Part shown: in pieces, positions 1-14,598 of the stretch
Layout of the letters: every line of letters starts with the position of its first letter
Position numbering within the stretch: position 1 is the first letter of the stretch
Source of the DNA: Pseudomonas hamedanensis
GTDB lineage: Bacteria; Pseudomonadota; Gammaproteobacteria; Pseudomonadales; Pseudomonadaceae
Assembly: GCF_014268595.2 (NCBI RefSeq)
Contig: NZ_CP077091.1
Location: 5,376,001 to 5,440,000 of the forward strand
Direction: 5' to 3'
Length of the DNA stretch: 64,000 bases
Translations under genes and position numbers: made by a program
Notes under the pieces: model-generated
The model's database searches: none
The model's input: only the letters and a program-made list of their open reading frames with translations
Told to the model about the DNA's origin: nothing

Positions 1-1805
1 ACCCGGCCTATGCCGCCGAAATCGGTCTGCTCGGCGAACGCCTGCTGACTCCGACCAGCACCACCCAGGTGCGCTACAGCTTCACCCTGTTCGAACTGAC
101 CCCGGACGGCTCCCGCGTGCGTGTGCAGACCGACAGCACCGACCAGCCGTTCGACATCAACGAAGGCAGCAAACTGGAACTGGGCTCGACCGCAAAAATG
201 CGCGTGCTGACCACTTACCTGCAAATCATTGCCGAACTGCACGACAAGTACGCCACCATGGGCGTGCCGGAACTGAAAAAAGTCGAGATCCCTGAGCAGG
301 ATCGCCTGAGCCGTTGGGTCCTCGATTACCTGATCCAGAACAAGGACCACGACCTGTCGAAGATGCTCGGCGCAGCGCTGGACCGCAAATACTCGGCGAG
401 TCCCGGCGAGGCGTTTTTCACCGGCGGTGGCTTGCACACTTTCAATAACTTTCGCAAAGAGGACAACGGTCGCCTGCCGACCCTGCGCGATGCCCTGCGC
501 GAGTCGATCAACCTGCCGTTCATTCGCCTGATGCGCGACGTGGTGCGCTACATCACCTACTCCGGCCCCAACAGCAGTGCCGAACTGCTCAAGGATGACC
601 GCGACCCGCGCCGTCAGGAATACCTGGCCAGTTTTGCCGACCGCGAGGGCACCTCGTTCCTGCTCAAGTTCTGGAAAAAGTACCGGAACAAGGACACCCA
701 GGCGCGACTGGAGACCTTCCTCGACGGCATGCGCCCGACGCCGATCCGCCTGGCCGCCGTGCATCGCTACCTGCTGCCCGAGGCCGAACAGAAAGACTTC
801 AACAGCTTCGTGCGCTCGCATCTGAAGGGCAGCAAACTCAACGAAAAACTCACCGACGATCGCCTGATCAGGCTTTACGATGCCTACGGCCCGGGCAGCT
901 ACGACTTGCCGGATCAGGGCTTCATCGCCAAGGTGCATCCGCTGGATCTATGGCTGATGGGCTACCTGCTCAACCATCCGGACGCGACGTTCAGTCAGAT
1001 CGTCAAAGCCAGCCATTTCGAGCGCCAGGAAGTCTACAGCTGGCTGTTCAAGAGCAAGCACAAGGGCGCACGCGACAGCCGAATCCGCACCATGCTGGAA
1101 ATTGAAGCCTTTCTTGAGATTCACCAGCGCTGGCAGAGCGTCGGTTATCCGTTCGACCACCTGGTGCCGTCACTCGCCACCGCCATCGGCAGCTCCGGCG
1201 ACCGCCCTGCGGCGCTGGCCGAGCTGATCGGTACGATCCTCAATGACGGCGTGCGCCTGCCAACGCTGCGCATCGACAGCCTGCATTTTGCTGCCGGCAC
1301 GCCCTACGAAACCCGCCTGGTCAACGACCCGCATGTCGGCAAACGGGTGATGCCGGTAGAAGTCGCCAGAGCCATGCGTGAAGCGCTTTCACAAGTTGTT
1401 GATGCCGGTACGGCAAAACGTGTTTCCGGCAGTTTCAAACTGGCTGATGGCACGCCATTGGCCATGGGTGGCAAAACGGGCACCGGTGATAACCGCATAC
1501 AGGCCATCGGATCGGGCGGCAGAATCCTCAGTTCGAAGTCGATCAACCGCACCGCGACCTTCGTGTTCTACATCGGCGATCACCATTTCGGCACCCTCAC
1601 CGCGTTCGTGCCGGGGCGCTCAGCGGACACCTTCAAATTCACCTCGGCCCTGCCCACACAGGTGCTCAAGGGCATGGCGCCGATTCTGACGCCCTACCTG
1701 CAACCGGGCAGCGACTCGCAATGCCGACCGCCGGCGAATACCCAGGTGACGATGGCGGCAATGGCTGAATCCGAATGGCATGGCCGCGAAGACTCACTCC
1801 GCTAA
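1..1805 (+). CDS. Penicillin-binding transpeptidase, C-terminal part (truncated at window edge)
   Basis: The reading frame is open from base 3, so the true start lies left of the window; about 600 residues are visible. The penicillin-binding transpeptidase triad is present: S-T-A-K (catalytic serine codon at 186-188), S-I-N (504-512) and K-T-G-T-G (from 1473). The protein should cross-link peptidoglycan in the periplasm. The large region between SxN and KTG is unusual for a standard PBP1A/1B and resembles the long transglycosylase-domain proteins annotated in pseudomonads; that assignment is from memory. The last codons (E-W-H-G-R-E-D-S-L-R, stop 1803-1805) overlap by 4 bp the end of the convergent adhesin gene, and a copy of them is found downstream of the second adhesin gene near 3086-3118. 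Confidence 0.8.
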   Translation, partial: PAYAAEIGLLGERLLTPTSTTQVRYSFTLFELTPDGSRVRVQTDSTDQPFDINEGSKLELGSTAKMRVLTTYLQIIAELHDKYATMGVPELKKVEIPEQDRLSRWVLDYLIQNKDHDLSKMLGAALDRKYSASPGEAFFTGGGLHTFNNFRKEDNGRLPTLRDALRESINLPFIRLMRDVVRYITYSGPNSSAELLKDDRDPRRQEYLASFADREGTSFLLKFWKKYRNKDTQARLETFLDGMRPTPIRLAAVHRYLLPEAEQKDFNSFVRSHLKGSKLNEKLTDDRLIRLYDAYGPGSYDLPDQGFIAKVHPLDLWLMGYLLNHPDATFSQIVKASHFERQEVYSWLFKSKHKGARDSRIRTMLEIEAFLEIHQRWQSVGYPFDHLVPSLATAIGSSGDRPAALAELIGTILNDGVRLPTLRIDSLHFAAGTPYETRLVNDPHVGKRVMPVEVARAMREALSQVVDAGTAKRVSGSFKLADGTPLAMGGKTGTGDNRIQAIGSGGRILSSKSINRTATFVFYIGDHHFGTLTAFVPGRSADTFKFTSALPTQVLKGMAPILTPYLQPGSDSQCRPPANTQVTMAAMAESEWHGREDSLR

Positions 1806-3025
1806 CCCACCTCAGAATCCCAGATCACCGTGACACTGCCCGAATAGCTTCGGGCAGTGCCAGGTTTGATCATTTCATCCACCGCATCCTGCGCGACTTC
1901 GAAGTGCAAAGTGCCGACCTTGCGATCCAGGTAAAAGCCCGGTTGAAACAACTCGGTGCCGCTGCCGTCACGCAGCAACCGCCGGCGGTTGACCGGCTGG
2001 CCGGCGCCATCTGTCAGGCCGTTGGGCAACGTCACACTGACCTCCAGCGGCGCCGAGTGGCCGGAGGTCGACTCCCATAACGCACAGGTGTTGTTGCTGT
2101 AATACTCACATTGCAGGTTCATCTTGAAATGGCTCGACGTCCAGATATTGAAAGTCTGGTCACGCAGCAAACGCGTCGGCTTGCGGCCCTGATCCAGCCA
2201 GGATTGCCAGCCGCCGACGGGCTCCAGTACCACTCGGTTGCCGCCGGGCGGGATGTCGACCTTCAGGGTGTGTTCAACGGACAAGGCAAAGTTGAGGCTG
2301 ATGGCACTGTCATCCGCCAGCATGACATCGCCCATGTCGAAATCCCCATACGGCCCGACCGTGTAATTCAATACGCCGCGATAGACCCCGGCTGACATTC
2401 TGAGCGGGTTGGGGGTGATGAGTTGATAAGAAAACCCCGTATCCCGATAGGAAAAACCGTAGCTCTCGTCGATCGTTAACTTTGCCTGCCTTGAGCACAC
2501 CCCGGCATCGAGCGGCACCCGCCAGAAAAAGGCGTACCACACTTGAGTACCGTAGCCGACACCGCCGTATCGACAGGGCGCGGGTGCATTGACCCAACCA
2601 GGCCAGGTGCCGGCCAGAAGCGGTTTCGTGATGGCGTAAGTTGCACCTATGCCATTGACGCGCATCCTGACGGTCTCGGTTTCCCCCGTCCCTTCATGAA
2701 CGACCTGGACGTCGCGCCATGACGACGGCACCCGGAACATCGGACCTTTGCGCTCGTCATGCAGTGCCTCGATGGGCGCTACCGCCTTGAAGCGAATGGG
2801 TAGGCTAAGACTGAACACGCCATTCTCGCAAAGCGTCGGGTAATTGCCGCAATACCCGCCTTGTGGTGTCGTATTTTCAAACTCATTTTGGGCAGGATTC
2901 GACGGATCCGGGCGAAACACCGCGGTGATATCCAGACTCGCGGCGCGCACCGTGGAGGCAAACAAACCTGCCAGCAGCCAAGCCAACAGGCCCCAACCCT
3001 TTTTTGTCGTGATCATGATGTGCAT
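1802..3025 (-). CDS. CblD/CfaE-like pilus tip adhesin (third paralogue)
   Basis: A secreted protein of about 407 residues with an N-terminal signal segment (G-L-L-A-W-L-L-A-G-L-F-A, cleavage near V-R-A-A). It is a paralogue of the adhesins at 3115 and 5753: they share an F-x-P-D-P-S-x-P motif after the signal, G-Y-C-x-x-Y-P, a central L-S/R-M-S-[AS]-G-[VL]-Y segment, H-T-L-K-V-x-[IL]-P-P-G-G-N, and the C-terminal W-D-S-E. In CFA/I, CS1 and cable pili this family starts pilus assembly and sits at the tip as the receptor-binding subunit. This copy is the most diverged of the three. The start is uncertain: ATG at 3025 and 3016 are both possible and a longer reading begins at 3055. It overlaps the convergent PBP gene by 4 bp. 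Confidence 0.8.
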   Translation of the reverse strand: MHIMITTKKGWGLLAWLLAGLFASTVRAASLDITAVFRPDPSNPAQNEFENTTPQGGYCGNYPTLCENGVFSLSLPIRFKAVAPIEALHDERKGPMFRVPSSWRDVQVVHEGTGETETVRMRVNGIGATYAITKPLLAGTWPGWVNAPAPCRYGGVGYGTQVWYAFFWRVPLDAGVCSRQAKLTIDESYGFSYRDTGFSYQLITPNPLRMSAGVYRGVLNYTVGPYGDFDMGDVMLADDSAISLNFALSVEHTLKVDIPPGGNRVVLEPVGGWQSWLDQGRKPTRLLRDQTFNIWTSSHFKMNLQCEYYSNNTCALWESTSGHSAPLEVSVTLPNGLTDGAGQPVNRRRLLRDGSGTELFQPGFYLDRKVGTLHFEVAQDAVDEMIKPGTARSYSGSVTVIWDSEVG

Positions 3026-3114
3026 ATTTTGCGAGGGCCTCTGGTAACGCCACAAATTGGTTTTCGCTCATCCTGCGTGATAGCTGAATGGCATGGCCGC
3101 AAGGACTCACTCCG

Positions 3115-4374
3115 CTAACCGACCTCCGAATCCCAGATCACCGTGATATTGCCCTTGTAGGGTTTGTCCCGGGCGTTGTCGATCAGCCAGTTGACGTCCC
3201 TCTGGTCGACCTCGAAATGCAGCGTTCCGGGCTTGCGATCAACGTAGATACCGGGTTGAAACGGACTGCTCGGTGTCAGGCGCAATGGCATGCGCCGGAC
3301 CGGTTGTCCGGTGCTGTCGGTCAGTCCGTTGGGCAGGCTGACGCTGACGTTCACGGCGCCGACGTAGCCCGTTTCGCGGTCGGTGATCCCGCAGCCGTTA
3401 CCAAAACCCATGTCGTGCTCACATTCGATCTTCATGGTGAATTTCGACGAGGCGGAGATATGGAAGAGCTGGTCACGGTAAAGACGTGTCGGCCGGCGGC
3501 CGTGTTCCAGCCAACCCTGCCATCCGCCCTCGGGTTCCAGCACGACCTTGTTGCCCCCCGGCGGAATTTCGACTTTGAGGGTGTGCTGTACGTCCAGGAC
3601 AAAGTCCAGAGTGAGGCTGTCGTCATCCGCATCCATCATCGAGCCCATCTGGAAATCGCCGCTGGACCCCAGGGTGTAGGTGATTGAACCGGTATATAGG
3701 CCGCTGCTCATGCTCAACGGATTTGGAGTTTTCAGTTCGTAAGCAATATCGATGCCCTGGAAGTACATGGAGGGAATGCCGAAGGCTGCTGTTTTTGTGC
3801 AGGCCGCTTCCACCGGCATCCGCCAGAAAAAATGATAAAGGGTGGCGGTATACCCGGCCACGCCGGTCCCCAGACAGGGCGCAGGGGCATAAAGCCAGCC
3901 GGCACGGGATGTCCAGAGCACGTCATGGCCGGAAGGGTGAACCACTCCGGTCAGCTCCTCGACGGTGTTGCTCAGGATGTACCGCGAGCCGATGCCGGTA
4001 ATGCGTACCTCGACGTCCTCTGTCTCTTGAGTATCAGTGTTGGTTACCGTCAACCGTCGCCAGGCCACGGGAACCCGCAGCGAAAGATCGTCCCCCGGTA
4101 CGATCGCGCGGTTTGAGTCAAAACGGACGGGTAACTGAATACTGAACATATTGGCATTGGCGCACTGCACAGGATAGCTTGCGCAGTAGCCACTGTTGGG
4201 CGTCTGGTTGACGAACAGGTTCTTGCTCGGCTGGGACGGGTCGGGCTGAAACAGCGCACGGATTTCCTGATTGGCCGCCTGCACCCCGGTGGTACTCATC
4301 ACCGCGAGCAACGCCAGACATTGGCTGACCCGAGGCATGCGCCGGCCTTGTTTGTGAAATTTCATCAGTGTCAT
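3115..4374 (-). CDS. CblD/CfaE-like pilus tip adhesin (second paralogue)
   Basis: A protein of 419 residues with a signal segment (residues about 15-33) followed by the adhesin N-terminus Q-E-I-R-A-L-F-Q-P-D-P-S-Q-P-S-K, which is identical in the first adhesin (5753-6967). Paired cysteines (G-Y-C-A-S-Y-P, and C-E-H-D near the C-terminal half) and the ending I-T-V-I-W-D-S-E-V-G fit the two-domain CfaE/CblD fold of lectin-like plus pilin domain. Its start overlaps the stop of the second pilin gene by 4 bp (ATGA at 4371-4374), so the two are translationally coupled. A later ATG at 4365 is possible. Its role is inferred to be tip adhesion, either alternative or additional to the first adhesin. 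Confidence 0.82.
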   Translation of the reverse strand: MTLMKFHKQGRRMPRVSQCLALLAVMSTTGVQAANQEIRALFQPDPSQPSKNLFVNQTPNSGYCASYPVQCANANMFSIQLPVRFDSNRAIVPGDDLSLRVPVAWRRLTVTNTDTQETEDVEVRITGIGSRYILSNTVEELTGVVHPSGHDVLWTSRAGWLYAPAPCLGTGVAGYTATLYHFFWRMPVEAACTKTAAFGIPSMYFQGIDIAYELKTPNPLSMSSGLYTGSITYTLGSSGDFQMGSMMDADDDSLTLDFVLDVQHTLKVEIPPGGNKVVLEPEGGWQGWLEHGRRPTRLYRDQLFHISASSKFTMKIECEHDMGFGNGCGITDRETGYVGAVNVSVSLPNGLTDSTGQPVRRMPLRLTPSSPFQPGIYVDRKPGTLHFEVDQRDVNWLIDNARDKPYKGNITVIWDSEVG

Positions 4375-4874
4375 CCCGCATCCGGGGTTTGGGCATTGAA
4401 CAGCAACAGCACATTGCCGGCATAGTCTCCCTGGCGGTACCCAGCGGCCGGCTTGATCGGGGCGATCTCCAGCATCACCCGTTTGCCCGCCGCCGCTTCT
4501 TCGCGGGTCAGCACTTGCCGCGGCGTCATCGCCGCACTCAGTTCAACGCCATTGAAGGTCACGCGCAGACTGATATCGTCCTCGGGGCGGCCATTGGACA
4601 GATAGGGTTCGGCCTCCAGTCGCGCTTCGATTGCGCTGCTGTCATGGCGCACGTCGAAGTTCTTTTGCACGCTGCTCAAGGTGGAAGTGGGGTAATCCCA
4701 GTTGAGCCGTTGCGCGCGATGAATCCAGTCCGGCTCCGCCGGGATCACGTAAAACGGCCGACTGGGAATGGTCAGGGACACTTCGAAGGTGTGTTCTTCG
4801 CGGGCCGCCCAGGCAGCGCTGGCGGTCAGTGCCGCCACGGCCATCAGCGCGACGACGGTGCATTGCTTGATCAT
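4371..4874 (-). CDS. Second CS1-type fimbrial subunit (minor pilin candidate)
   Basis: A 167-residue precursor starting M-I-K-Q-C-T-V-V-A-L-M with a clear signal peptide ending near A-W-A-A. The mature protein has the plan of the major pilin at 9604: an early F-Y-V-I-P motif, a following D-P/W-x region, F-D-V-R at mid-length, and the C-terminal G-D-Y-x-G-x-V strand. This is the CS1/CFA/I major-subunit family. I chose ATG 4874 because it begins the signal peptide; an upstream in-frame ATG at 4955 would add an unlikely Arg-rich leader. It is coupled to the second adhesin through an ATGA overlap. The pairing suggests a minor or adaptor subunit dedicated to that adhesin, which is inference. Confidence 0.78.
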   Translation of the reverse strand: MIKQCTVVALMAVAALTASAAWAAREEHTFEVSLTIPSRPFYVIPAEPDWIHRAQRLNWDYPTSTLSSVQKNFDVRHDSSAIEARLEAEPYLSNGRPEDDISLRVTFNGVELSAAMTPRQVLTREEAAAGKRVMLEIAPIKPAAGYRQGDYAGNVLLLFNAQTPDAG

Positions 4875-4964
4875 GTTCGTTACCCGTTGCGTCAATGAAA
4901 GGCAGGCCCGGCGCAAACACGCCACGGCACCTGTGGCGAGACTGTTGGCTCGCACCGGACTGCG

Positions 4965-5708
4965 TTAGCGGCTGGTGATCCTGAGGTTTTTCTTGTCGTT
5001 GCCTTCGATCAAGAAGAAGCGGTATTCGCGGCCCTTTTCCTTGTCGAACGAGAAGGTCTTGCCGGCCAGCACATGGTGCTTGGTGGTCGCGCCGCAATCG
5101 GTTTCCTTGGTCAAGGAGCAGCTTTTGAACTCGTCGACGATCACCACGGTGTTGCCGTCGTTGCGCAGTTCATAACGCTTGTCGGTTTCATTGATGACCG
5201 TGGCAAAACGCGCATCCTTCGGCCGCACGAAAAAGATCGTGCCGAAACCGGTCATCACGTTGACCCCGGCGGTAAGGGTCTTTTTGTAGTCCTCACGTTC
5301 TTCGCCGCTGACGGCAAACTCGTCTTCCTTTTCCGGCACGACCGGCACGAACCGCACGCGGAAATAGCGCTCGCGGTCACGCTCGCCCATGTACAACAAT
5401 CGCGTACCCTGCATGCCCTTGGCCGGCACGATCAGCCGCGCCGGGCTGGCCATCACGCCGTTGCGCGAAGCGCCGTCGGCGGCGGCCTCCACCGGAATTT
5501 CCTTGGGCTGACCGTTGGCGTCGTAGATGATCTCCAGCACGTTGACCTTGACGAACGCGGTGGCGTCGCCGCTGTTGAATACGCGCTTGAGGTAGGTGCT
5601 TTTGTCAGCGTCCAGATAGTCGTACACGGTGCCGACATTGATCTGCGGACCGGCCTGCGCGGTCAGACAAAACACACTGAGCAGGCCCAGCAAAAAAACA
5701 CGGTTCAT
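4965..5708 (-). CDS. Alternate-pathway periplasmic pilus chaperone
   Basis: A 247-residue secreted protein starting M-N-R-V-F-L-L-G-L-L with a cleavable signal ending T-A-Q-A. It is basic, beta-rich and of the size of CfaA/CooB/CblB-type chaperones, with the expected G-T-R-L-L-Y strand (about residue 100) and a C-terminal pair of cysteines (C-S-L-T-K-E-T-D-C). Such chaperones hold pilin and adhesin subunits in the periplasm and pass them to the usher. ATG 5708 is preferred over the longer reading from 5756 because TGGAG lies just upstream and the signal peptide starts there. It lies between the first adhesin and second pilin genes and would be part of the same transcript. Confidence 0.82.
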   Translation of the reverse strand: MNRVFLLGLLSVFCLTAQAGPQINVGTVYDYLDADKSTYLKRVFNSGDATAFVKVNVLEIIYDANGQPKEIPVEAAADGASRNGVMASPARLIVPAKGMQGTRLLYMGERDRERYFRVRFVPVVPEKEDEFAVSGEEREDYKKTLTAGVNVMTGFGTIFFVRPKDARFATVINETDKRYELRNDGNTVVIVDEFKSCSLTKETDCGATTKHHVLAGKTFSFDKEKGREYRFFLIEGNDKKNLRITSR

Positions 5709-5752
5709 CGTTTTCGACTCCACAAGAATTGAAAAGGGCCAGCCCGGAACGC

Positions 5753-6967
5753 TCACGCTTCCGAGTCCCAGATAATGGTGATATTGCCGCGCAGCTTGTC
5801 GTTCACGCCGGGTTTGAGCAGAAAGTTGATAGCAAACGGCGTCATGTAGAAGTTCAGCGAACCGACCTTGCGATCAACGTACAGTCCGGGCTGGAATGGC
5901 CCCACCCAGTTGTTGTATTGCAATGGCATCCGGGTGACGTTGTAGCCGCCAGCGCCGGCAATGCCCGGCGGTAAGGTGATGGCCACCTGAATGTCGGTCG
6001 TGTTGCCCTTGGGGCTGTTCAGCCGGCAGGTGTTGCCCCCAGGGGAATTGCACAGCAACATGACCTTGAAGCGCGACGACGCCGACAGATAGAACGGCTG
6101 ATCGCGGAAAATCTCGGTCGGTTTTTTCCCGCTCTCGATCCATGGCGCCCACCCGCCTGCGGGTTCCAGCGAAACTCTATTGCCACCCGGTGGCAGCTCG
6201 ACCTTCAGGGTGTGCTGCACATCCAGCACGAAATCCAGGGTCAGGTTGCTGTCATCGGGCATGAACGATGACCCGAAAGTGAAATCGCCGGCGGGACCGA
6301 GGGTGTAGTTGATCGACCCGGTGTAAAGTCCGGAAGACATCCCCAGCGGATTGGGGGTGCGCAGTTCATAGGCAAAATCCAGGGTGTTGAACGTCATCTG
6401 CGGAATGGTGAACCGCGCCACCTTGGTGCAGTCTGCTTCAACCGGTGCTTTCCAGAAAAAACGATAGGTTTGGCTGCCGTAGAAACCGACTCCGCTATAC
6501 CGGCACGGAGCGGGCGCATAGACCCAACTGCTACCCTCCCATAACGCCTGATGCGCGGTGAGATTGTTGGTCTCTCCCGTCAGCTCGGCGGCGGTATGAC
6601 TGAGGATGAAATTGGACCCGATGCCCGTAATGCGCACCTCGACCACTTCGGTTTCCTGGGTGTCGGCATTGGTAACCGTCAATTGCCGCCAGTTTGCAGG
6701 CACCCTGATCGGGATCGCATCCCCCGGCTGCAAGGGTGCCTGGGATGACATTAGAACCGGCAACTGAATGCTGAACATGCTGTTCTGCTCACATTCACCC
6801 GGATACGACGCGCAGTAGCCACTGTTCGGTGTCTTGTTGACGAATACATTTTTGCTCGGTTGGGACGGATCCGGCTGGAACAACGCTCGGATTTCCTGGG
6901 TCGCCGCTTCCGCTCTGGGCATCGCCAGCGCCAGGCACACCCCAAGGACTGTCGTGGACAATTTCAT
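5753..6967 (-). CDS. CblD/CfaE-like pilus tip adhesin (first paralogue, next to usher)
   Basis: A 404-residue secreted protein with signal M-K-L-S-T-T-V-L-G-V-C-L-A-L-A and mature start near A-T-Q-E-I-R-A-L-F-Q. It shares long stretches with the second adhesin (G-Y-C-A-S-Y-P, T-N-A-D-T-Q-E-T-E, N-P-L-G-M-S-S-G-L-Y-T-G-S-I) and ends I-T-I-I-W-D-S-E-A. Its position directly after the usher gene (4 bp gap) matches cfaE/cooD/cblD in known alternate chaperone-usher operons, so this is the likely original tip adhesin and pilus initiator. The other two copies would be derived from it or from a common ancestor. The ligand cannot be read from the sequence. Confidence 0.85.
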   Translation of the reverse strand: MKLSTTVLGVCLALAMPRAEAATQEIRALFQPDPSQPSKNVFVNKTPNSGYCASYPGECEQNSMFSIQLPVLMSSQAPLQPGDAIPIRVPANWRQLTVTNADTQETEVVEVRITGIGSNFILSHTAAELTGETNNLTAHQALWEGSSWVYAPAPCRYSGVGFYGSQTYRFFWKAPVEADCTKVARFTIPQMTFNTLDFAYELRTPNPLGMSSGLYTGSINYTLGPAGDFTFGSSFMPDDSNLTLDFVLDVQHTLKVELPPGGNRVSLEPAGGWAPWIESGKKPTEIFRDQPFYLSASSRFKVMLLCNSPGGNTCRLNSPKGNTTDIQVAITLPPGIAGAGGYNVTRMPLQYNNWVGPFQPGLYVDRKVGSLNFYMTPFAINFLLKPGVNDKLRGNITIIWDSEA

Positions 6968-6971
6968 CGAC

Positions 6972-9494
6972 TCAACCCGCCTTCTGCTCAGTGGAGGTCA
7001 CGTCGGCCAGAGTGTCTGGCGTGCAACGCAGGTCACCGATCATCAACACATTGTTTTCACGCCGATGGCTGTCGGCGTCGAGACGGAACTGACACAGCAA
7101 CTGATTGCCCTGGCGCACTTCCAGGGTCGGCGAGCCGGCGTTCATCTCCATTGAGAAAAAGCCATCGACCTCGGTCACGCCGCGGCTGGCATGGTTGATC
7201 ACATGGTGGCCCTTGAGCGGCAGCCCTTGTGCATCGACCAGACGCCCGAGCACCGTCAGGGTTTTCATCACGCGAACCTTGCGATACTCCACCCCGCCCT
7301 TGTTAAGGTGATAGCGGGTACGCGCCGGTTCGATGGTCGCGGCCGGGACGTTATTGCCCTCGAAATCGAAGCTCACCGAGCTGTTCTGATACGCGGTGAT
7401 CGGAATGAAATTGCGCCCCGGTTTCAACGCCGCACTGCCGCCGCTGTAATCGTCGGCACGCAGCAAGATGTTTTCGATGTCCGACTCGACATCGACAATC
7501 ATCCCCGCGCCGCGCACCTCGCTCTGGCTGGTCATGAGCATTTGCTCGCCGCCGATCACCAGCGTGCTGTCGAGGTTGAGGCCACCGGTGAAATTGCCGT
7601 TGTAGGACGAACGCTGGACAAAGCCATCGCCACCGACGGTGTCGGTGCGGAAGTTCGCCAGGCTGGACATGCCCACGCCATAGGTGTCGGTGAGCGCGGT
7701 GACCGACACGTTCTGCAGCACGTGGTCTTTGAAATCCCTGCGCCAGCCGAGCGAAGCATTGTTGTCGCGCGCGCCGTCACGCGCCGTGCGTGAACCGATA
7801 CTGCCGGTGATCTGCTGGCCCGGCGCGCCGAGCGCCAGGTTGACGCTCAGGTCGACCCCGCGATTGCGCGCATCGCCGCTGCTGTAGCTGCCCGGCCGAT
7901 CAAAGATCGACAAGCGCCAGCTGGCATCGCTGCCGAACAGCTCGGTGCGCTGGGTCCAGCCCATGTCGACACCGAAGCCCTCGACATTGCCCTCACTGTG
8001 CGACACCCGAGCGTTGATTGAACTCTTGCTGTTGACCCGATGGTTGAGCGCCAGCGACGAATTGCTGGTCTGGCCGATAAACACATTGCGCGGCCGTACC
8101 CGGGTGCCATCGGGCAGGGTGTCGTAGGTGTCCGTGGTGTCGAGCCAGCTGCGGTTGTGGCTGATCACGATGCTGCCGGCGCCGTAGTTATACAAGCTTT
8201 GCAGGTCAAGTCCGGTGCCGTAGTCCTCGGTCTTGTAGACGTTGGCGTACAGGCTGATGTGGTTGGCCAGCGTCCAGTCGATGGACGTGCCGTATTGCAG
8301 TTTTTCGCGGATCTGCCGCGCCGACATCCCGAGAATCACCCGCGGATGCAGCAGGTAATTGACGGCCGCGCCCGCGGTCGGACTGCCACTGGATTGCGTG
8401 TCCCAGTTGCTCAGCAACTTGCTTTCTTCGCCGGCGAACACGTTGTAGCGCCAGCGGTCATCGAGGTTGCGCCAGTTGTTGGGCTTGTACACCAACTCCT
8501 GGGTGGTGGAGGTGATCTGGCCGTCTTCGATCAGGCGCACTTCCACTTCATAGATACCGCCCGGCAAGGGACGGGTGTCGAGGGTCTGCAAACCGGCGGG
8601 CACTGACTGGGTATTGATCAGCAGGCCATCGCGCCAGATTTCCACCGAACCCTGGCGGTTGGCCGTGACATAGATCGGGTACACGCTGGGCATCGGCGAG
8701 TTGATGGCCAGACTGTCGGAGCTGCCGTACATGATGCCCACGGCGGTATCGGGGCTGGTGCCAAACGTACGCGGTTGGCGCGTCAGCCCTTCGGAATTGG
8801 GGGTGAAATAGCCCAGACGGAAAAAACTGCCTTGCAGTTCGCGCTGGGTGTGGAGTTCGTGCACGGCATGGTAGAGCTTGTCGTCCGGGCCGCCGAGGCG
8901 CGCCACTTGCAGGTTGAGCGTCTGGCTCCAGTTGCCGAGGCTGCCGGTAGCCTCCAGGCCGAAGCGCCCGCCCAGATCCTGTTCCTGGCCGCCATTGAGG
9001 TTGAGCTGGTTACGCACCATCAGACCACTGCTGCCGCCGTTGGGCTGCTCGTAATAGCGCTTGACCGAAGCGTCGCGCTCGGCGTTTTCGGTGAGGATCG
9101 ACACCGTCGAGTTTTCCAGGTTGTAGTGCACCGCCAGCAACTGCTCGGGACAGGCACTACTGCACGTCCCCAACGGTACGCCGGGCTTGAGCACGCTCGC
9201 CCATTTTTCCCGCTCGGTGGGGCCAAAACGGTTTTCGCTGGTGTCGGTGAATTCGAGCAGGGTGATGCGATCATCGCGCGACAGCACCACCATGGCCTCA
9301 CCCAGCGGCTGTTGATCGAGTTCGACTCGAACCGCCAGCGGCACATCAAAGAAATGCTCCTCGAAATCAGCTGGCAAGCCCTTGGCCTGCGCCAGCAGAC
9401 TGCGAGGCGTCGTGCCAGCGGAATTGGAAGCCACGGCTGCACTGGCACAAAACAACAGCGCAAGCGCAGCCGCGATGGGTGTCATCGGGAACAT
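6972..9494 (-). CDS. Outer-membrane usher, CfaC/CooC/CblC type
   Basis: An 840-residue outer-membrane protein with an N-terminal signal (M-T-P-I-A-A-A-L-A-L-L-F-C-A-S-A). A chaperone-binding N-terminal domain follows (residues about 35-140), then a long beta-barrel. The plug-like insertion (I-Y-V-T-A-N-R-Q-G-S-V-E-I-W-R-D-G, about 265-330) and a C-terminal beta-sandwich (V-L-G-R-L-V-D-A-Q-G-L-P-L-K-G, about 745 onward) match TcfC/CfaC ushers. It is the assembly platform that takes chaperone-subunit complexes and threads the pilus through the outer membrane. It follows the major pilin after a strong hairpin (9532-9555), which should lower its expression relative to pilin. Confidence 0.9.
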   Translation of the reverse strand: MFPMTPIAAALALLFCASAAVASNSAGTTPRSLLAQAKGLPADFEEHFFDVPLAVRVELDQQPLGEAMVVLSRDDRITLLEFTDTSENRFGPTEREKWASVLKPGVPLGTCSSACPEQLLAVHYNLENSTVSILTENAERDASVKRYYEQPNGGSSGLMVRNQLNLNGGQEQDLGGRFGLEATGSLGNWSQTLNLQVARLGGPDDKLYHAVHELHTQRELQGSFFRLGYFTPNSEGLTRQPRTFGTSPDTAVGIMYGSSDSLAINSPMPSVYPIYVTANRQGSVEIWRDGLLINTQSVPAGLQTLDTRPLPGGIYEVEVRLIEDGQITSTTQELVYKPNNWRNLDDRWRYNVFAGEESKLLSNWDTQSSGSPTAGAAVNYLLHPRVILGMSARQIREKLQYGTSIDWTLANHISLYANVYKTEDYGTGLDLQSLYNYGAGSIVISHNRSWLDTTDTYDTLPDGTRVRPRNVFIGQTSNSSLALNHRVNSKSSINARVSHSEGNVEGFGVDMGWTQRTELFGSDASWRLSIFDRPGSYSSGDARNRGVDLSVNLALGAPGQQITGSIGSRTARDGARDNNASLGWRRDFKDHVLQNVSVTALTDTYGVGMSSLANFRTDTVGGDGFVQRSSYNGNFTGGLNLDSTLVIGGEQMLMTSQSEVRGAGMIVDVESDIENILLRADDYSGGSAALKPGRNFIPITAYQNSSVSFDFEGNNVPAATIEPARTRYHLNKGGVEYRKVRVMKTLTVLGRLVDAQGLPLKGHHVINHASRGVTEVDGFFSMEMNAGSPTLEVRQGNQLLCQFRLDADSHRRENNVLMIGDLRCTPDTLADVTSTEQKAG

Positions 9495-9531
9495 GAACTC
9501 TTACTCTGGTTACGAAGGATGGAAGTCCGAC

Positions 9532-9555
9532 GGGGCAGACATTGCTGTCTGCCCC
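9532..9555 (-). promoter_or_regulatory. Pilin-usher intercistronic hairpin (attenuator or mRNA stabiliser)
   Basis: A perfect 10-bp inverted repeat, GGGGCAGACA / TGTCTGCCCC, with a 4-base loop lies in the 109-bp gap between the major pilin stop and the usher start. No T-tract follows on the minus strand, so it is unlikely to be a full intrinsic terminator. A hairpin here can protect the 3' end of pilin mRNA or partly end transcription, giving more pilin than usher. Confidence 0.65.
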
Positions 9556-9603
9556 AATCGGTAAACGCTGACTACCGTCAGGGTTGAAGGCCGAATGGGC
9601 CGA

Positions 9604-10089
9604 TCAAGGCCCAGCCGGAGGAACGGCGTCGAAAGTCATCGCAACCACACCGGTGTAATCGCCCGGAGTGAAAGTGTTACCAACGGCGCTGATTTTCAGC
9701 GGCGCACGGTAGTTCACGTCGGATTCAGCCTCACCGACGATTTCCTGTGGCGTCAGGGTCAAAACCTTGTTGTTGATCGCCACTTGCAGATCGATGCTGC
9801 TCGAACCGGAGATCAACTTCGGCACGCTGTCGAGGCTGGCGTGAACCGAACCGCTGTTGTTGCGCACGTCAAAGAAACCGGTCACGTCACGCATCTTGCC
9901 GGTCGCCGGCTGATAGCTCATGTCCTGGTCTTTGTTGACCAGATCAGGGTCGGTTGGAACGATATAGAAACCATTGGTCGGCACGTGAGCGACGAGGCTG
10001 ATGGAGTGCGCAGCTTCACCGGCGGCGAACGCGCCAGTGGAAGCCATGGCCAGTGCCAGAGGAGCAGCGATTGCGAGTTTCTTGAACAT
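9604..10089 (-). CDS. Major pilin, CS1/CFA/I/cable-pilus family
   Basis: A 161-residue precursor starting M-F-K-K-L-A-I-A-A-P-L-A-L-A-M with a signal peptide ending A-F-A-A. The mature chain is about 138 residues, lacks cysteine, and carries the family features F-Y-I-V-P-T-D-P (about residue 42), F-F-D-V-R-N (about 73) and the C-terminal G-D-Y-T-G-V-V-A-M-T-F strand. These subunits polymerise by donor-strand exchange into the shaft of alternate chaperone-usher pili. It is the first gene of the minus-strand pilus locus, as expected for the most abundant product, and an AGGTA ribosome site lies just upstream. The next gene, the usher, follows a strong hairpin. Confidence 0.88.
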   Translation of the reverse strand: MFKKLAIAAPLALAMASTGAFAAGEAAHSISLVAHVPTNGFYIVPTDPDLVNKDQDMSYQPATGKMRDVTGFFDVRNNSGSVHASLDSVPKLISGSSSIDLQVAINNKVLTLTPQEIVGEAESDVNYRAPLKISAVGNTFTPGDYTGVVAMTFDAVPPAGP

Positions 10090-10586
10090 CGGTCAGTACC
10101 TGTTTCTGTCTATAAGGGAGTTCATTCAAAGTTCCAACCGACCGTATCTCTAGTTGAGACAAATCAATTCGAACCTTCAACGCCGGGGCATGATCGACTG
10201 TTACCTCTGGAATGTAAGCAGGCAACTTCCGACAACCACGTAGCCCAACACCCCTTGATCCCGCCAGAAAAAAGACTGAAAAACAGAGACTTGCAAAAGT
10301 AACTGTAAGTTATCCCCTACATACAGTTATCCGGAAAAAACCATGCAGCAACTTTAATCAACAGGCATGCCAACTTAGCACTGTTTAGAATACAAGCTCT
10401 ACGACAACTAGAGCGTTAACTTTAACTCTCGGGTTACGCCGCAGAATTATTGATTCGGAAAATAAATTGTTGCGTTCAAGCTGGCCAACCGCTCGTCCGG
10501 CGCGTTCGGATCAGAGGAAAAAGGCCTTGCGCGAGCTTTAAGATATATCTTAAGTTGTATCTAAACACGACGAGAGAAAGCGAAAA
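10090..10586. promoter_or_regulatory. AT-rich divergent intergenic region with inverted repeats
   Basis: A 497-bp gene-free stretch, visibly AT-richer than its neighbours, separates the divergently read pilin operon and padR gene. It contains the inverted repeat TAACTGTA (10300-10307) / TACAGTTA (10322-10329), a direct repeat AGTTATCC within and after it, and the padR-side palindrome described separately. I could not identify a convincing sigma70 or sigma54 promoter for the pilin. The AT richness would suit silencing by MvaT/H-NS-like proteins (inference). Confidence 0.5.
10538..10553. promoter_or_regulatory. Palindromic operator candidate upstream of padR-type gene
   Basis: TTAAGATATATCTTAA is a perfect 16-bp palindrome, 33 bp before the start of the PadR-family gene. 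Position and symmetry fit an autoregulatory site for that repressor, which would control itself and the coupled ferric reductase. Confidence 0.6.
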
Positions 10587-11162
10587 ATGAGAGACCCTCA
10601 TTCCCCCCACCGCGAACACGCTGATGGCCGCGACGGCTTCGAAAAACGCCCCGGCCGCGAGCGCGGCGGGCGCGGTCCGCGAGTGTTCGCCCCCGGTGAT
10701 CTGAAACTGCTGCTGTTGGCGCTGATCGCCGAACAGCCGTGTCACGGCTACGACCTGATCCGCCAGATCGAAGGCATGTTCGATGGCGCCTACAGCCCGA
10801 GCCCCGGCGTGATCTACCCGACCCTGACCTTTCTGGAAGAAAGCGACCTGATTGCCGGCGACGCCGAGGGTGGCAAAAAACGCTACCGCGTCACCGACAC
10901 CGGTCGTTTGTCGTTAAGCGAACAGGCCGTGGCGCTCGACGGCGTGCGCATGCGCATCGAGGTCAGCAAGCGCTCCCTGCGCGGCCACGACCGCCCGCCG
11001 GAAATTCATGAAGCAGTGCATAACCTGCGCCATGCCCTGCAGATGCATCACGGACGCTGGAGCGCGGCAGAAATCCTGCGTGTACGCGATCTGCTCAACG
11101 ACACCGCCAAAGCCATCGTCGACGGCCCTGCCGTTCAACCTGCCCCGGAGAAAGCCGAATGA
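10587..11162 (+). CDS. PadR-family transcriptional regulator (YqjI-like)
   Basis: A 191-residue protein. Residues about 1-32 are a charged, His- and Arg-rich tail (P-H-S-P-H-R-E-H). A PadR winged helix follows (L-K-L-L-L-L-A-L-I-A-E-Q-P-C-H-G-Y-D-L, then S-P-G-V-I-Y-P-T-L), then a helical dimerisation tail. The neighbour is a siderophore-interacting reductase whose start overlaps this stop by 4 bp. This matches E. coli YqjI, a nickel-responsive PadR protein with a His-rich N-terminus that represses yqjH, although in E. coli the two genes are divergent. Metal sensing here is inference. A perfect palindrome at 10538-10553 is the likely operator. The ribosome site is a weak GAGAG about 12 bases upstream. 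Confidence 0.85.
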   Translation: MRDPHSPHREHADGRDGFEKRPGRERGGRGPRVFAPGDLKLLLLALIAEQPCHGYDLIRQIEGMFDGAYSPSPGVIYPTLTFLEESDLIAGDAEGGKKRYRVTDTGRLSLSEQAVALDGVRMRIEVSKRSLRGHDRPPEIHEAVHNLRHALQMHHGRWSAAEILRVRDLLNDTAKAIVDGPAVQPAPEKAE

Positions 11163-11944
11163 CTGCAGTCGATAGCCAAACCATCCACCGCGTGATGCAC
11201 GAGATCAAACGACGCAAGCTGCAAGTGTTGCGCGTCACCGACCTGACCCCGCGCATGCGCCGCATCACCCTCGGCGGGCCGGAATTGGCCGGATTTATCA
11301 GTCTGGGCACGGACGATCACGTCAAACTGCTGTTCCCGCAGAACGCCGAGCAGGCAGCGGCGCTGGAGACCCTGGTACTCGGCGCTGGCAAGGACAACGG
11401 GCCGTTGCCCGAGATGCGCGACTACACACCGCGCCGTTACGATTTGGAAAAAATGGAGCTGGACATCGATTTTGTCCTGCACGGCGACGGTCCTGCCTCG
11501 ACCTGGGCGGAACAGGCGCAGCCCGGACAGTTTCTGCACATCGGCGGCCCCCGCGGTTCGATGATCGTGCCGGACATTTTCGACAGCTATCTGTTGATTG
11601 GCGACGAAACCGCCCTGCCCGCCATCGCCCGCCGCCTCGAAGGTCTGGCGGCGAATCGCAAGGCGCTGGTGGTGATTGAAGTGGAAAACGGTGCCGAGCA
11701 GCAAAAGCTGGACAGTGCCGCGCAGGTCAACGTGATTTGGGTGCTGCGTGAAGGTGGCCAGGACAACCTGCTGACCACCGTCAGACAGTTGCAAGTGCCC
11801 AAGGGCAATCTGTATGCCTGGGTGGCAACCGAGACCAGGGTTTCGCGGCAGATTCGCCGTGTGCTGATCGATGAGCATGGGCTGGATGAACAGTTCATCA
11901 AGGCTGTCGGTTACTGGCGCGCCGAAGGCTCTGACGAAGAGTAA
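11159..11944 (+). CDS. Siderophore-interacting protein, FAD-dependent ferric-chelate reductase (YqjH/ViuB-like)
   Basis: A 261-residue cytoplasmic flavoprotein. The N-terminal FAD-binding barrel carries R-R-I-T-L-G-G-P-E-L and the Y-T-P-R-R-Y FAD motif (D-Y-T-P-R-R-Y-D, about residue 90). F-V-L-H-G-D-G-P-A-S-T-W-A is the siderophore-interacting-protein signature, and the C-terminal half is a NADPH-binding domain. The enzyme should release iron from ferric siderophores by reduction. It is translationally coupled to the PadR gene (ATGA at 11159-11162), so both are probably under the same palindrome. Function is well supported by family; the siderophore served is unknown. Confidence 0.88.
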   Translation: MTAVDSQTIHRVMHEIKRRKLQVLRVTDLTPRMRRITLGGPELAGFISLGTDDHVKLLFPQNAEQAAALETLVLGAGKDNGPLPEMRDYTPRRYDLEKMELDIDFVLHGDGPASTWAEQAQPGQFLHIGGPRGSMIVPDIFDSYLLIGDETALPAIARRLEGLAANRKALVVIEVENGAEQQKLDSAAQVNVIWVLREGGQDNLLTTVRQLQVPKGNLYAWVATETRVSRQIRRVLIDEHGLDEQFIKAVGYWRAEGSDEE

Positions 11945-11953
11945 TGCTCCACC

Positions 11954-12042
11954 TGTAGGAGTGAGCCTGCTCGCGATAGCGCTCTATCAGTTGATGCAAC
12001 TGTGAATGACAGACCGCTATCGCGAGCAGGCTCACTCCTACA
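11954..12042. repeat. REPIN (paired inverted REP)
   Basis: Two REP units, TGTAGGAGTGAGCCTGCTCG and its inverse, flank a 40-bp spacer between convergent genes. This is the most common REPIN type in this window. It may act as a transcription stop or mRNA-stabilising hairpin between the two genes. Confidence 0.9.
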
Positions 12043-12670
12043 ATGATTTTCGGCGATCCAGACCTATCACCAGCAGGCCCACCAGCACAAACCCGACCAA
12101 TATCCCGCCGGCATTCGCCAGCACCTGTGGATAACCCAACACTGCCACATCAATGAACGGATACGCATACGCGCCAAGCAAATGCCCGCGCAGCAAGGCG
12201 TAGACGAAATACACCAGCGGATAAATCAACCACACCGGTAAGTGCCACAGGCGCAAGGTGCCTTTGGGGACGCACCACCACCAGTAGCCCAGAAACAGCA
12301 ACGGCATGACGTCGTGGAGCAGTTCATCAGCGACAAACTGCCAACCTTCGGGATGCCACAGATGCCGCAGCAGCAGACTGTAGGCCAATCCAACCACTGC
12401 GATGCTTACGGCAATTCCACTGCTCACCCAAGGCTTTCGAAACCAGCGCCGCACGGCGGATTCGCGATCAGTCACGGCACAGGTCAGCACCGTCGCCGCC
12501 AGCGTATTGGTCAATATGGTGAAGTAGCTGAAGAAGCTCACCAGCCCGCCCAGCAGGCTGGCGCCGACGCTCAATCGTGCGAAAAAAATCAGGTACAACT
12601 GAATCGCCAGTCCTGTCCAGCCCAACACGGCCAGGCAGGTGATCAAGCGTCGCCGCCTTGCGCTGTCCAT
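12038..12670 (-). CDS. Pr6Pr-family integral membrane protein
   Basis: A 210-residue hydrophobic protein with about six transmembrane segments, for example L-A-V-L-G-W-T-G-L-A-I-Q-L-Y-L-I and the last G-I-L-V-G-F-V-L-V-G-L-L-V-I. It has the family features F-S-Y-F-T-I-L-T-N (about residue 47) and H-D-V-M-P-L-L-F (about 119), seen in Pr6Pr/FAR-17a/AIG1-like proteins. The biochemical role of the bacterial members is not known to me. It starts 1 bp after the stop of the VF530 gene, so the two form an operon, and its 3' end runs into a REPIN. Confidence 0.75.
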   Translation of the reverse strand: MDSARRRRLITCLAVLGWTGLAIQLYLIFFARLSVGASLLGGLVSFFSYFTILTNTLAATVLTCAVTDRESAVRRWFRKPWVSSGIAVSIAVVGLAYSLLLRHLWHPEGWQFVADELLHDVMPLLFLGYWWWCVPKGTLRLWHLPVWLIYPLVYFVYALLRGHLLGAYAYPFIDVAVLGYPQVLANAGGILVGFVLVGLLVIGLDRRKSL

Positions 12671-12671
12671 G

Positions 12672-12902
12672 TCAGAGCGGTCGCTTGGTGCGCATCAGCT
12701 TCACGTACAGACGCTCGACTTTCTCCCGTGCCCACGGGGTTTTACGCAGAAAGGTCAGGCTCGACTTGATGCTGGGATCGCTCTTGAAGCAACGGATGTC
12801 GATGCGCTCGGCCAGCCCCGACCACTCGTAGTGAGTCACCAGTGCGTTGAGGATCTGTTCAAGGGTCACGCCGTGCAGCGGATCGGGGGATTGTTCGTTC
12901 AT
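12672..12902 (-). CDS. VF530-family small DNA-binding protein (DUF2132)
   Basis: A 76-residue basic protein: [11 protein letters not shown], then [24 protein letters not shown], and F-L-R-K-T-P-W-A-R. These are the hallmark blocks of the VF530 family, whose Vibrio member has a known fold and is described as DNA-binding. ATG 12902 is chosen because it gives the family length; the frame stays open upstream through a repeat and is not coding there. An AAAGG lies about 9 bases upstream. It is the first gene of a two-gene operon with the Pr6Pr membrane protein. Confidence 0.82.
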
Positions 12903-13236
12903 GCCGGGCCTTTGGACGAAGTGGAAATGCTTAAAGCCGCGCACCTTAGCCGAGGGGATGATCGGGTGGAAGGCCTTCCTGCAAATGTAGGTCAAGGTCA
13001 AAAGATCGCAGCGTTTCGCAGCTCCTACAGGTTGTACGCATTTCAAGGTAGGGGCTGCCGAAGGCTGCGATCTTTTCGCACTGTTACCAAATCCGAAAGG
13101 ATGCATGTTTATAAAAGGCCTTTGTCTTTTTGTAACAGATCATTATCCTGCCGCCCTTCTGCTTAAACGCTTCACTGCCTGCGTCATATTGAAGCGCCGC
13201 AATCGCACCCGAAAAACACCAAAAAAAGACTTATTC
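12903..13236. other. Intergenic region with repeat and porin leader
   Basis: A 334-bp stretch between the divergent VF530 and OprB genes. It holds an inverted repeat at 13000-13076 and an AT-rich leader ahead of the porin. No further gene is supported, and I do not see a clear HexR- or GltR-type site by eye. Confidence 0.6.
13000..13076. repeat. Inverted intergenic repeat (GATCGCAGC type)
   Basis: Arms AAAAGATCGCAGC and GCTGCGATCTTTT (13064-13076) enclose AGCTCCTACAG and GTAGGGGCTGCC sub-arms. It is a second class of palindromic Pseudomonas intergenic repeat, unrelated to the REPs with GCTCGCGA cores elsewhere in the window. Confidence 0.75.
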
Positions 13237-14598
13237 ATGCCTGATTTTTCCTCACCCCGAGACAGCGCTATCTCAATCCTGCGCACCCTTGGCGGCTGCA
13301 CCGCCCTGGGCCTCGCCACTTGTGTTCAAGCCGCTCCGGCGTTCGACAGTGAATCACCGTGGATGCTCGGTGACTGGAACGGCACGCGCACAGAGCTTTC
13401 GGAAAAAGGCTACGACTTCAAGCTCGATTACACCGGCGAAATGGGCAGTAACCTGCACGGCGGCTATGACCACGACCGCACCGCGCGCTACAGCGATCAG
13501 TTCGGCCTCGGCACGCATCTTGACCTGCAAAAAATCCTCGGCTGGGACGGCGCCGAGTTTCAACTGACCCTCACCAAACGCAGCGGCAACAACATCAGCA
13601 ACGACCGCATCAACGACCCGCGCGTCGGCGGCTTCACCTCGGCGCAGGAAGTCTGGGGCCGTGGCCAGACCACGCGCCTGACGCAGATGTGGTACCAGCA
13701 GAAATTCCTCGACCAGAAGCTCGACATCAAGGTTGGCCGTTTCGGCGAAGGCGAAGATTTCAACAGCTTCCCCTGCGATTTCCAAAACCTGGCCTTCTGC
13801 GGTTCGCAGGTCGGTAACTGGGTCGGCGGCATCTGGTACAACTGGCCGGTCAGCCAATGGGCGCTGCGGGTCAAATATCACCTGACGCCGGAGCTGTACG
13901 CGCAGGTCGGCGCCTATGAGCAGAATCCGTCGAACCTGGATCGCGGCAACGGTTTCAAACTCAGCGGCAGCGGCACTCAAGGCGCAATCCTGCCGATCGA
14001 GCTGGTGTGGACGCCGAAGCTCAACGGCCTGCCAGGCGAATACCGCGCCGGCTACTACTACAGCAACGCCAAGGCCGCTGATGTTTATAAAGACCAGAAC
14101 GGCCAGCCGGCAGCCCTCAGCGGCGAAGCCTACCGCAGCGCGTCGAGCAAGCATGGCGTGTGGCTCGGCGTGCAGCAGCAGGTCACCAGCGTCGCCAGCG
14201 ACAACTCGCGTGGCTTGAGCCTGTTCGCCAACGCGACGATGCACGACAAGAAAACCAACGCCATCGACAACTACGTGCAGGCCGGCCTGACCTACAAAGG
14301 CCCGTTTGATGCCCGCGCCAAGGATGACATCGGTTTCGCCCTCGCCCGCGTGCACGTCAACCCGGCCTATCGCAAAAACGCCGAAATGAGCAACCGCGCC
14401 AATGCCGTCTACGACTACGACGATCCGTCCTTCCTGCCACCGCAGGACACCGAATACAGCGCCGAGCTGTATTACGGCGTGCACGTGACGAACTGGCTGA
14501 CCGTACGCCCGAACCTGCAATACATCCGCCACCCCGGTGGCGTGAACGACGTCGACGACGCCCTGATCGGCGGAATCAAGATCCAGTCGTCGTTCTAA
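13237..14598 (+). CDS. oprB: Carbohydrate-selective porin OprB
   Basis: A 453-residue outer-membrane protein. Start ATG 13237 gives a signal segment (I-S-I-L-R-T-L-G-G-C-T-A-L-G-L-A) with cleavage near V-Q-A-A. The mature start S-P-W-M-L-G-D-W-N-G-T-R is the classic OprB entry motif, followed by L-D-Y-T-G-E and repeated amphipathic strands. The chain ends in F (I-K-I-Q-S-S-F), as required for barrel insertion. OprB lets glucose into the periplasm. The next gene is membrane glucose dehydrogenase, so the two form a functional pair for direct periplasmic glucose oxidation. A REPIN separates them, so they may be separate transcripts. The frame extends upstream to 13105, but without the signal organisation. 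Confidence 0.92.
   Translation: MPDFSSPRDSAISILRTLGGCTALGLATCVQAAPAFDSESPWMLGDWNGTRTELSEKGYDFKLDYTGEMGSNLHGGYDHDRTARYSDQFGLGTHLDLQKILGWDGAEFQLTLTKRSGNNISNDRINDPRVGGFTSAQEVWGRGQTTRLTQMWYQQKFLDQKLDIKVGRFGEGEDFNSFPCDFQNLAFCGSQVGNWVGGIWYNWPVSQWALRVKYHLTPELYAQVGAYEQNPSNLDRGNGFKLSGSGTQGAILPIELVWTPKLNGLPGEYRAGYYYSNAKAADVYKDQNGQPAALSGEAYRSASSKHGVWLGVQQQVTSVASDNSRGLSLFANATMHDKKTNAIDNYVQAGLTYKGPFDARAKDDIGFALARVHVNPAYRKNAEMSNRANAVYDYDDPSFLPPQDTEYSAELYYGVHVTNWLTVRPNLQYIRHPGGVNDVDDALIGGIKIQSSF

Follow-up and report, generated by a model that had tools for sequence, protein, structure and literature searches.

A steady pilus chassis and a changing set of putative tip adhesins in an alternate chaperone-usher locus of Pseudomonas

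Within the 64,000-nucleotide stretch of DNA analyzed here from Pseudomonas hamedanensis, whose genome falls near the fluorescens group (the window; contig NZ_CP077091.1, positions 5,376,001 to 5,440,000), seven open reading frames (ORFs), all on the minus strand, make up an alternate chaperone-usher pilus locus. They lie uninterrupted and tightly packed within window positions 1802..10089, in the order pilin, usher, adhesin, chaperone, pilin, adhesin, adhesin. The locus is a variant of a known alternate pilus type that is common in its genus, and its new point is the head-base modularity of its adhesins. The best reading, which we hold to be probable, is that of one pilus machine with interchangeable, recombining tips of a single adhesin each. 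We see an even chance that this extends to a genus-wide adhesin-cassette system with a steady chassis and tip genes that turn over, in which heads would be shuffled at the head-base boundary and one usher would give rise to pili of mixed specificity. An initial annotation of the window had listed interchangeable tips as one option, and this option is now the favored one.

Three homologous adhesins with a predicted CfaE-like fold

The locus holds three adhesins of about 400 residues, adh1 in the slot upstream of the chaperone (5753..6967), adh2 in the first downstream slot (3115..4374) and adh3 in the second downstream slot (1802..3025). They are homologous, adh2 being 56% and adh3 44% identical to adh1. 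The relatives found at E≤1e-3 (1145 for adh1 and 1210 for adh3) show that these ORFs are not chance, and descriptive names among the matches listed (240 rows) are hypothetical, uncharacterized or exported protein. The locus marks this large family, with its uninformative names, as likely adhesins.

The AlphaFold2 model (adh1; pLDDT 90.0) has two domains, a head and a pilin-type C-terminal base, and its best fold match is CfaE, from the mature N-terminus (residue 20-21, aligned with CfaE residue 28) to the C-terminus. The initial annotation had named hidden Markov model (HMM) results outside the CfaE/CblD family as its refutation, and this has partly come about: no CblD HMM matches the adhesins, so that by sequence they are not assigned to the family, and the predicted fold alone speaks for CfaE. 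For comparison across the genus, adhesins shorter than 330 amino acids were excluded from the trees, leaving 142 entries, 141 of them with both domains. All six cysteines are conserved in 141 of 141, and the mature N-terminus lies 31 residues from the first cysteine in 128 of 142, a constant length that argues against an added extension. No N-terminal donor extension was seen in the alignment or the model, with signal peptides placed by eye.

The initial annotation had also offered a composite tip, in which several adhesins are stacked in one fiber tip. The adhesin genes do stand in a single operon-like run and are maintained together. With no donor extension seen, however, stacking by donor-strand exchange would have no evident means, and the number of adhesins varies freely on one chassis (see below). 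We regard a composite tip as quite improbable.

Heads and bases of the adhesins have conflicting histories

Of 199 Pseudomonas genomes, 92 contain a relative of adh1. The genomes compared are from the genus and were retained on an adh1 match; besides the window's own genome there are 91, of which 89 gave 90 regions (G130 supplied two, and G007 and G081 were left out). Together with the window and three named loci of P. fluorescens and P. neuropathica (L004-L006), these regions give 94 stretches, whose gene strings are written below with P for pilin, U for usher, A for adhesin and C for chaperone. ORFs were classed by profiles grown from the window's own genes; the usher profile drifted (from 99 to 262 ORFs), and length and score filters were applied to it.

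Domain trees were built from 36 adhesins of 20 close loci. Within this clade of the window, per-domain identities conflict between head and base, and the relative of adh3 in the downstream slot of L085 agrees with it at 0.72 in the head and 0.78 in the base. A group with 100/100 support in the head tree unites four upstream genes (of L053, L033, L041 and L061) with two downstream ones, adh2 and that of L062; the base data reject it (log-likelihood lower by 214.6; p 1e-45). Conversely, the head data reject two groups defined by slot. One, of ten upstream-slot genes (p 6e-6), is part of the best base tree, though weakly supported there (39/62); the other, of nine downstream-slot genes (p 1e-7), is not rejected by the bases (p 0.26). 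In adh2 and in genes of L038 and L053, similarity switches sides in segments spanning residues ~191-260.

The same boundary emerges across the genus. Among 141 adhesins the correlation between head and base is 0.69, compared with at least 0.91 for random splits of the columns and 0.82 and 0.83 for the halves of each domain. Between neighboring 100-column blocks the correlation is lowest (0.58-0.66) when the split falls at residues 222-262. Bases that agree at 0.80 or more under heads that agree at 0.65 or less occur in 13 of 65 within-locus pairs, and the reverse in none; between loci the counts are 67 versus 1 of 9805. Of the 141 genes, 30 have their nearest base, and 12 their nearest head, within their own locus. 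As read from these comparisons, head and base histories of the adhesins conflict, and they part at the domain boundary. For the window's clade, this looks like movement of heads from slot to slot over bases that have mostly stayed; in other loci, the genes of one locus can carry near-identical bases under different heads.

The ratio of nonsynonymous to synonymous substitution rates (dN/dS) is 0.07-0.29 in the 17 comparisons, out of 18, for which it could be computed, and these cover both slots as well as both domains; some of them have a high dS, and the value for adh3 (0.12) is for its base only, the head being saturated. These ratios bear on the possibility that the downstream adhesins serve chiefly as a silent store from which heads pass by gene conversion into an expressed copy. 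Movement of heads between slots, and bases that look homogenized within some loci, would fit such a store. The low dN/dS, however, speaks against silence, and the downstream copies have their own starts, signal-like N-termini and short gaps; the start of adh2 and the stop of pilin 2 share 4 bases. Furthermore, loci of the PUCPA type possess only a downstream adhesin. A silent store is therefore improbable in our view.

A steady chassis carries a changing adhesin set

The commonest of the 94 strings are PUACPA (24), PUACP (13), PUCPA (7) and PUAC (6). The window's own string, PUACPAA, occurs in 4, so that the seven-gene order for which the initial annotation had proposed a genome survey is not a one-off. 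For counts per locus, 90 loci were used (L113, with no usher in its stretch, and L004-L006, of which L004 by its length seems to be a contig already among the regions, were excluded), and genes opposite the usher strand, such as three adhesins of L057, stand outside these counts. At least two pilins are present in 74 of the 90 loci and at least two adhesins in 50, and thus neither the second pilin nor the additional adhesins are the unusual extras that they had first been taken for. Adhesins range from 0 to 4 per locus (at least three in 12 loci, none on the usher strand in 2), and no simple relation between adhesin number and pilin number was seen in the table of 90 loci.

On a tree of 86 ushers, the presence of pilin 2 changes twice, versus 13.9 times when shuffled, while adhesin number needs at least 26 changes (36.2 on average and no fewer than 30 when shuffled). 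The rarity of the former and the frequency of the latter point to pilin 2 as an old standard part and the adhesin set as the changing part, though one that still follows the tree in part. Pilins before and after the usher likewise fall into two old groups, with 4 slot changes in a tree of 182 versus 61 when shuffled.

Frequent changes of adhesin number, together with broken or partial copies in relatives, would also be expected if the additional adhesins were neutral duplicates heading for decay. Against this, the window's copies have diverged (44-56% identity to adh1) and yet remain open, related pairs are constrained, and adhesin matches that were not called as genes turned up in only 2 of the 94 stretches. 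We consider this account highly improbable.

The usher could also serve two different pili, one made of pilin 1 and the upstream adhesin and one made of pilin 2 and the downstream adhesins. That the two pilins are old and distinct classes agrees with this, as does the largely slot-specific distribution of bases in the window's clade. Slot-specific bases are not general across the genus, however, and pilin 2 is kept in the 13 PUACP loci that lack a downstream adhesin, as is pilin 1 in the 7 PUCPA loci that lack an upstream one. Because both pilin classes are kept when one adhesin slot is empty, one shared fiber is indicated rather than two, and we judge two pili to be unlikely.

Several loci depart from the common plan. 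In L057:1628-11537, three tandem adhesin genes form a divergent unit of their own, on the strand opposite to the pilin, usher and chaperone genes. In L088:8293-10197, where no chaperone was called, a single 634-aa frame scores as usher and has a match to the adhesins at 9133-10194; this looks like a deletion that fused usher and adhesin. Broken adhesin genes were seen at G108:C1:4594165-4595361, which has an in-frame TAG, and at L114:15524-16760, which is split over two frames.

A model of one machine with interchangeable tips

In the model that we favor, a single alternate chaperone-usher machine would assemble a pilus from two pilins, and each pilus tip would carry one of the three interchangeable two-domain adhesins. 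Pilin 1 would form the shaft, and pilin 2 would be an adaptor or minor subunit usable with any tip. An adhesin without a donor strand can only cap the fiber, and each adhesin would thus cap it and start its assembly in the manner of CfaE. The three adhesins would compete for the usher, resulting in a mixed population of pili. Recombination between genes would swap heads while the base remained fitted to chaperone, usher and pilins; with heads swapped on fitted bases, binding could change without the pilus being rebuilt.

A number of observations weigh against this model. The assembly and binding steps are deduced from the anatomy of the locus, and the missing donor strand is a judgment from alignment and model with signal peptides read by eye. 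No sequence link to CfaE was found when a 37-sequence adhesin profile was searched against the PDB, which returned no pilus adhesin. CblD (PF07434) had no hit in the three adhesins (E≤1), in 37 family members (E≤0.1) or in the genome (E≤1). The head, folded alone and searched, had no convincing relative, and CfaE was absent among the matches listed, which does not by itself prove a new fold. The groups put to the approximately unbiased test were named after the trees had been seen. Across the 141 adhesins, slot changes number 27 for heads and 21 for bases, and slot-locking of bases occurs only in the window's clade; heads crossed slots in 19 genes and bases in 11. Between the window's own adh1 and adh2, heads agree better (0.64) than bases (0.50). 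Adhesin number follows the usher tree to some extent, its changes lying below the shuffled mean. Finally, similarity within a locus is barely raised over that to the nearest locus, by 0.026 for bases (16 of 27 loci) and by 0.030 for heads (17 of 27).

A coupling of the adhesins of one locus beyond relatedness was also considered and rejected: it is strong relative to random pairing and nearly gone relative to the nearest locus (27 loci).

Usher, chaperone and pilins

Usher and pilins identify the locus as alternate chaperone-usher, and the genes and the order first described are confirmed. The 840-aa alternate (alpha-type) usher (6972..9494), separated from adh1 by 4 bases, is over the Pfam cut-off for CooC_C (E 1.2e-24) and TcfC (E 4e-24), and far under the cut-off for the NCBIfam TcfC equivalog. 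Pilin 1, the probable shaft pilin (9604..10089), and pilin 2 (4371..4874) are both over the cut-off for PF04449 (Fimbrial_CS1), with E 2.2e-9 and 6.6e-10, and belong to the upstream-slot and downstream-slot pilin groups, respectively. The initial annotation was right that an environmental bacterium has such a locus, with two pilins and with three adhesins of tip type. The periplasmic chaperone (4965..5708) has no Pfam match; its NCBIfam match to TcfA has E 1.3e-6 yet is far under cut-off, and among PDB sequences it matches EcpB (E 1.8e-6) and CfaA (E 0.0019). The three adhesins match no Pfam or NCBIfam family, and a phmmer search of the PDB with adh1 found no pilus adhesin. Genome-wide, the one alternate usher, the two CS1 pilins and the three adhesins of this kind are all in this locus; one classical usher lies elsewhere.

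The likely true starts were picked by eye, with preference for an ATG followed by a signal-like peptide. This places the starts of adh3 at 3025 rather than the TTG at 3055, of pilin 2 at 4874 rather than the GTG at 4955, and of the chaperone at 5708 rather than the GTG at 5756, the open frames extending to the latter positions.

Gaps between pilin 1 and usher are structured as RNA in many loci, with a mean z of -2.68 (54 of 73 below -2) computed against mononucleotide shuffles, whereas gaps between pilin 2 and an adhesin are not (mean z 0.10; 0 of 5 low). Low z was also found in gaps between pilin 2 genes (2 of 8) and between usher and adhesin (4 of 6). In the window, the pilin 1-usher gap holds a perfect 10-bp stem with a 4-base loop (9532..9555, minus strand). 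Together with the structured gaps of other loci, this stem is a hint at pilin 1 as the abundant subunit.

A second chaperone gene follows pilin 2 in L112, L105, L097, L098, L044 and L027, and in L107, L069, L070 and L082 three or four tandem genes of the pilin 2 type follow the chaperone.

Relation to known pili

CFA/I and CS1 of Escherichia coli (cfaABCE and coo) are alike to the window locus in usher and pilin families; the window's chaperone matches CfaA and its adhesin model best matches CfaE. The window locus differs in its two pilin classes, three adhesins and gene order, and its adhesins are outside the CblD HMM. Given seven genes, two pilins and three adhesins in place of the four genes of cfa and coo, we class it as a variant; a four-gene composition is typical of described alternate loci and is not the basis of the class. 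The E. coli common pilus (ECP, ecp) comes closest in the chaperone, since EcpB is the nearest PDB sequence. The ecp locus has two chaperones, and relatives of the window locus with two chaperones recall it. ECP differs in having one pilin and one tip adhesin, EcpD. CFA/I-type class 5 pili have four genes, one tip adhesin and one major pilin (PMC7531860, PMC4133393). In CFA/I, assembly at the usher is initiated by CfaE together with its chaperone, and all donor strands are of one type (PMC7531860). EcpD is the tip adhesin of ECP (PMC12442223).

Cable (Cbl) pili of Burkholderia and Tcf pili of Salmonella are of the same alternate class, and the window's usher has a TcfC domain and its chaperone a weak TcfA match. 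Cbl pili have a single adhesin. The single adhesin of Cbl and Tcf sets both apart from the window locus, and the CblD HMM does not match the window's adhesins. In allelic tip adhesins, FimH or PapG for instance, the binding head likewise varies while the pilus stays constant. PapG occurs in classes, and for FimH and PapG there is one adhesin gene per operon with alleles that differ between strains. Loci of the window's type, in contrast, hold several adhesins per operon and appear to exchange heads between gene slots. In one Salmonella study, tcf is of the four-gene type and recombination is discussed for FimH (PMC3373541). Among the papers listed in a literature search, judged by title and abstract opening and with subscription papers mostly outside, none describes this locus or a multi-adhesin alternate pilus, which is a weak negative.

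Bacteria of this type live on roots and in soil. If the model holds, one pilus machine may bind different surfaces, and head exchange offers a visible route for changing specificity. Described class 5 pili combine a single machine and a single tip adhesin (PMC7531860); here a steady machine would carry a variable tip set. This raises the questions of whether one usher can serve several tip adhesins and whether heads track hosts or surfaces.

Genomic neighborhood and further observations

A PadR-type regulator gene (10587..11162, plus strand; PF03551, E 8.2e-16) is the divergent neighbor of the locus. A relative of it is present in the fetched stretch of 70 of the 90 loci, and a relative of the neighboring PBP gene in 64 of 90. 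The PadR-type gene is a marker of the chromosomal site; any link to the pilus would be hypothetical. The idea of a foreign island was dropped because neighbors are shared across loci and GC content (0.578-0.627) is similar to that of the window (0.603).

In the leader of about 500 bases before pilin 1, an inverted repeat read by eye (AACTGTA / TACAGTT, 10301-10328) is a possible regulator site. A sigma-70 promoter scan gave 0 sites, compared with 2.7 in shuffles, and an Rfam search of positions 1-14000 gave no match. Terminator-like sites numbered 15, compared with 9.1 in shuffles.

A search of the phylum, which scored four candidates per genome, found a relative of adh1 in at least 6 of 398 genomes, a lower bound: five are in the genus Pseudomonas and one is in another family of the class. 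Two Stenotrophomonas proteins are among the distant adhesin matches. Among the matches listed, adhesin relatives are named Pseudomonas almost throughout; the one row labeled as eukaryote (P0122), a 556-aa match from a eukaryote protein set that is 70% identical over half of adh3, is probably bacterial contamination of that set.

The 3' ends of adh2 and adh3, with the bases after them, form a repeat (D4; 3086..3154 and 1773..1841, minus strand; 91% identical), which is a trace of tandem duplication or conversion.

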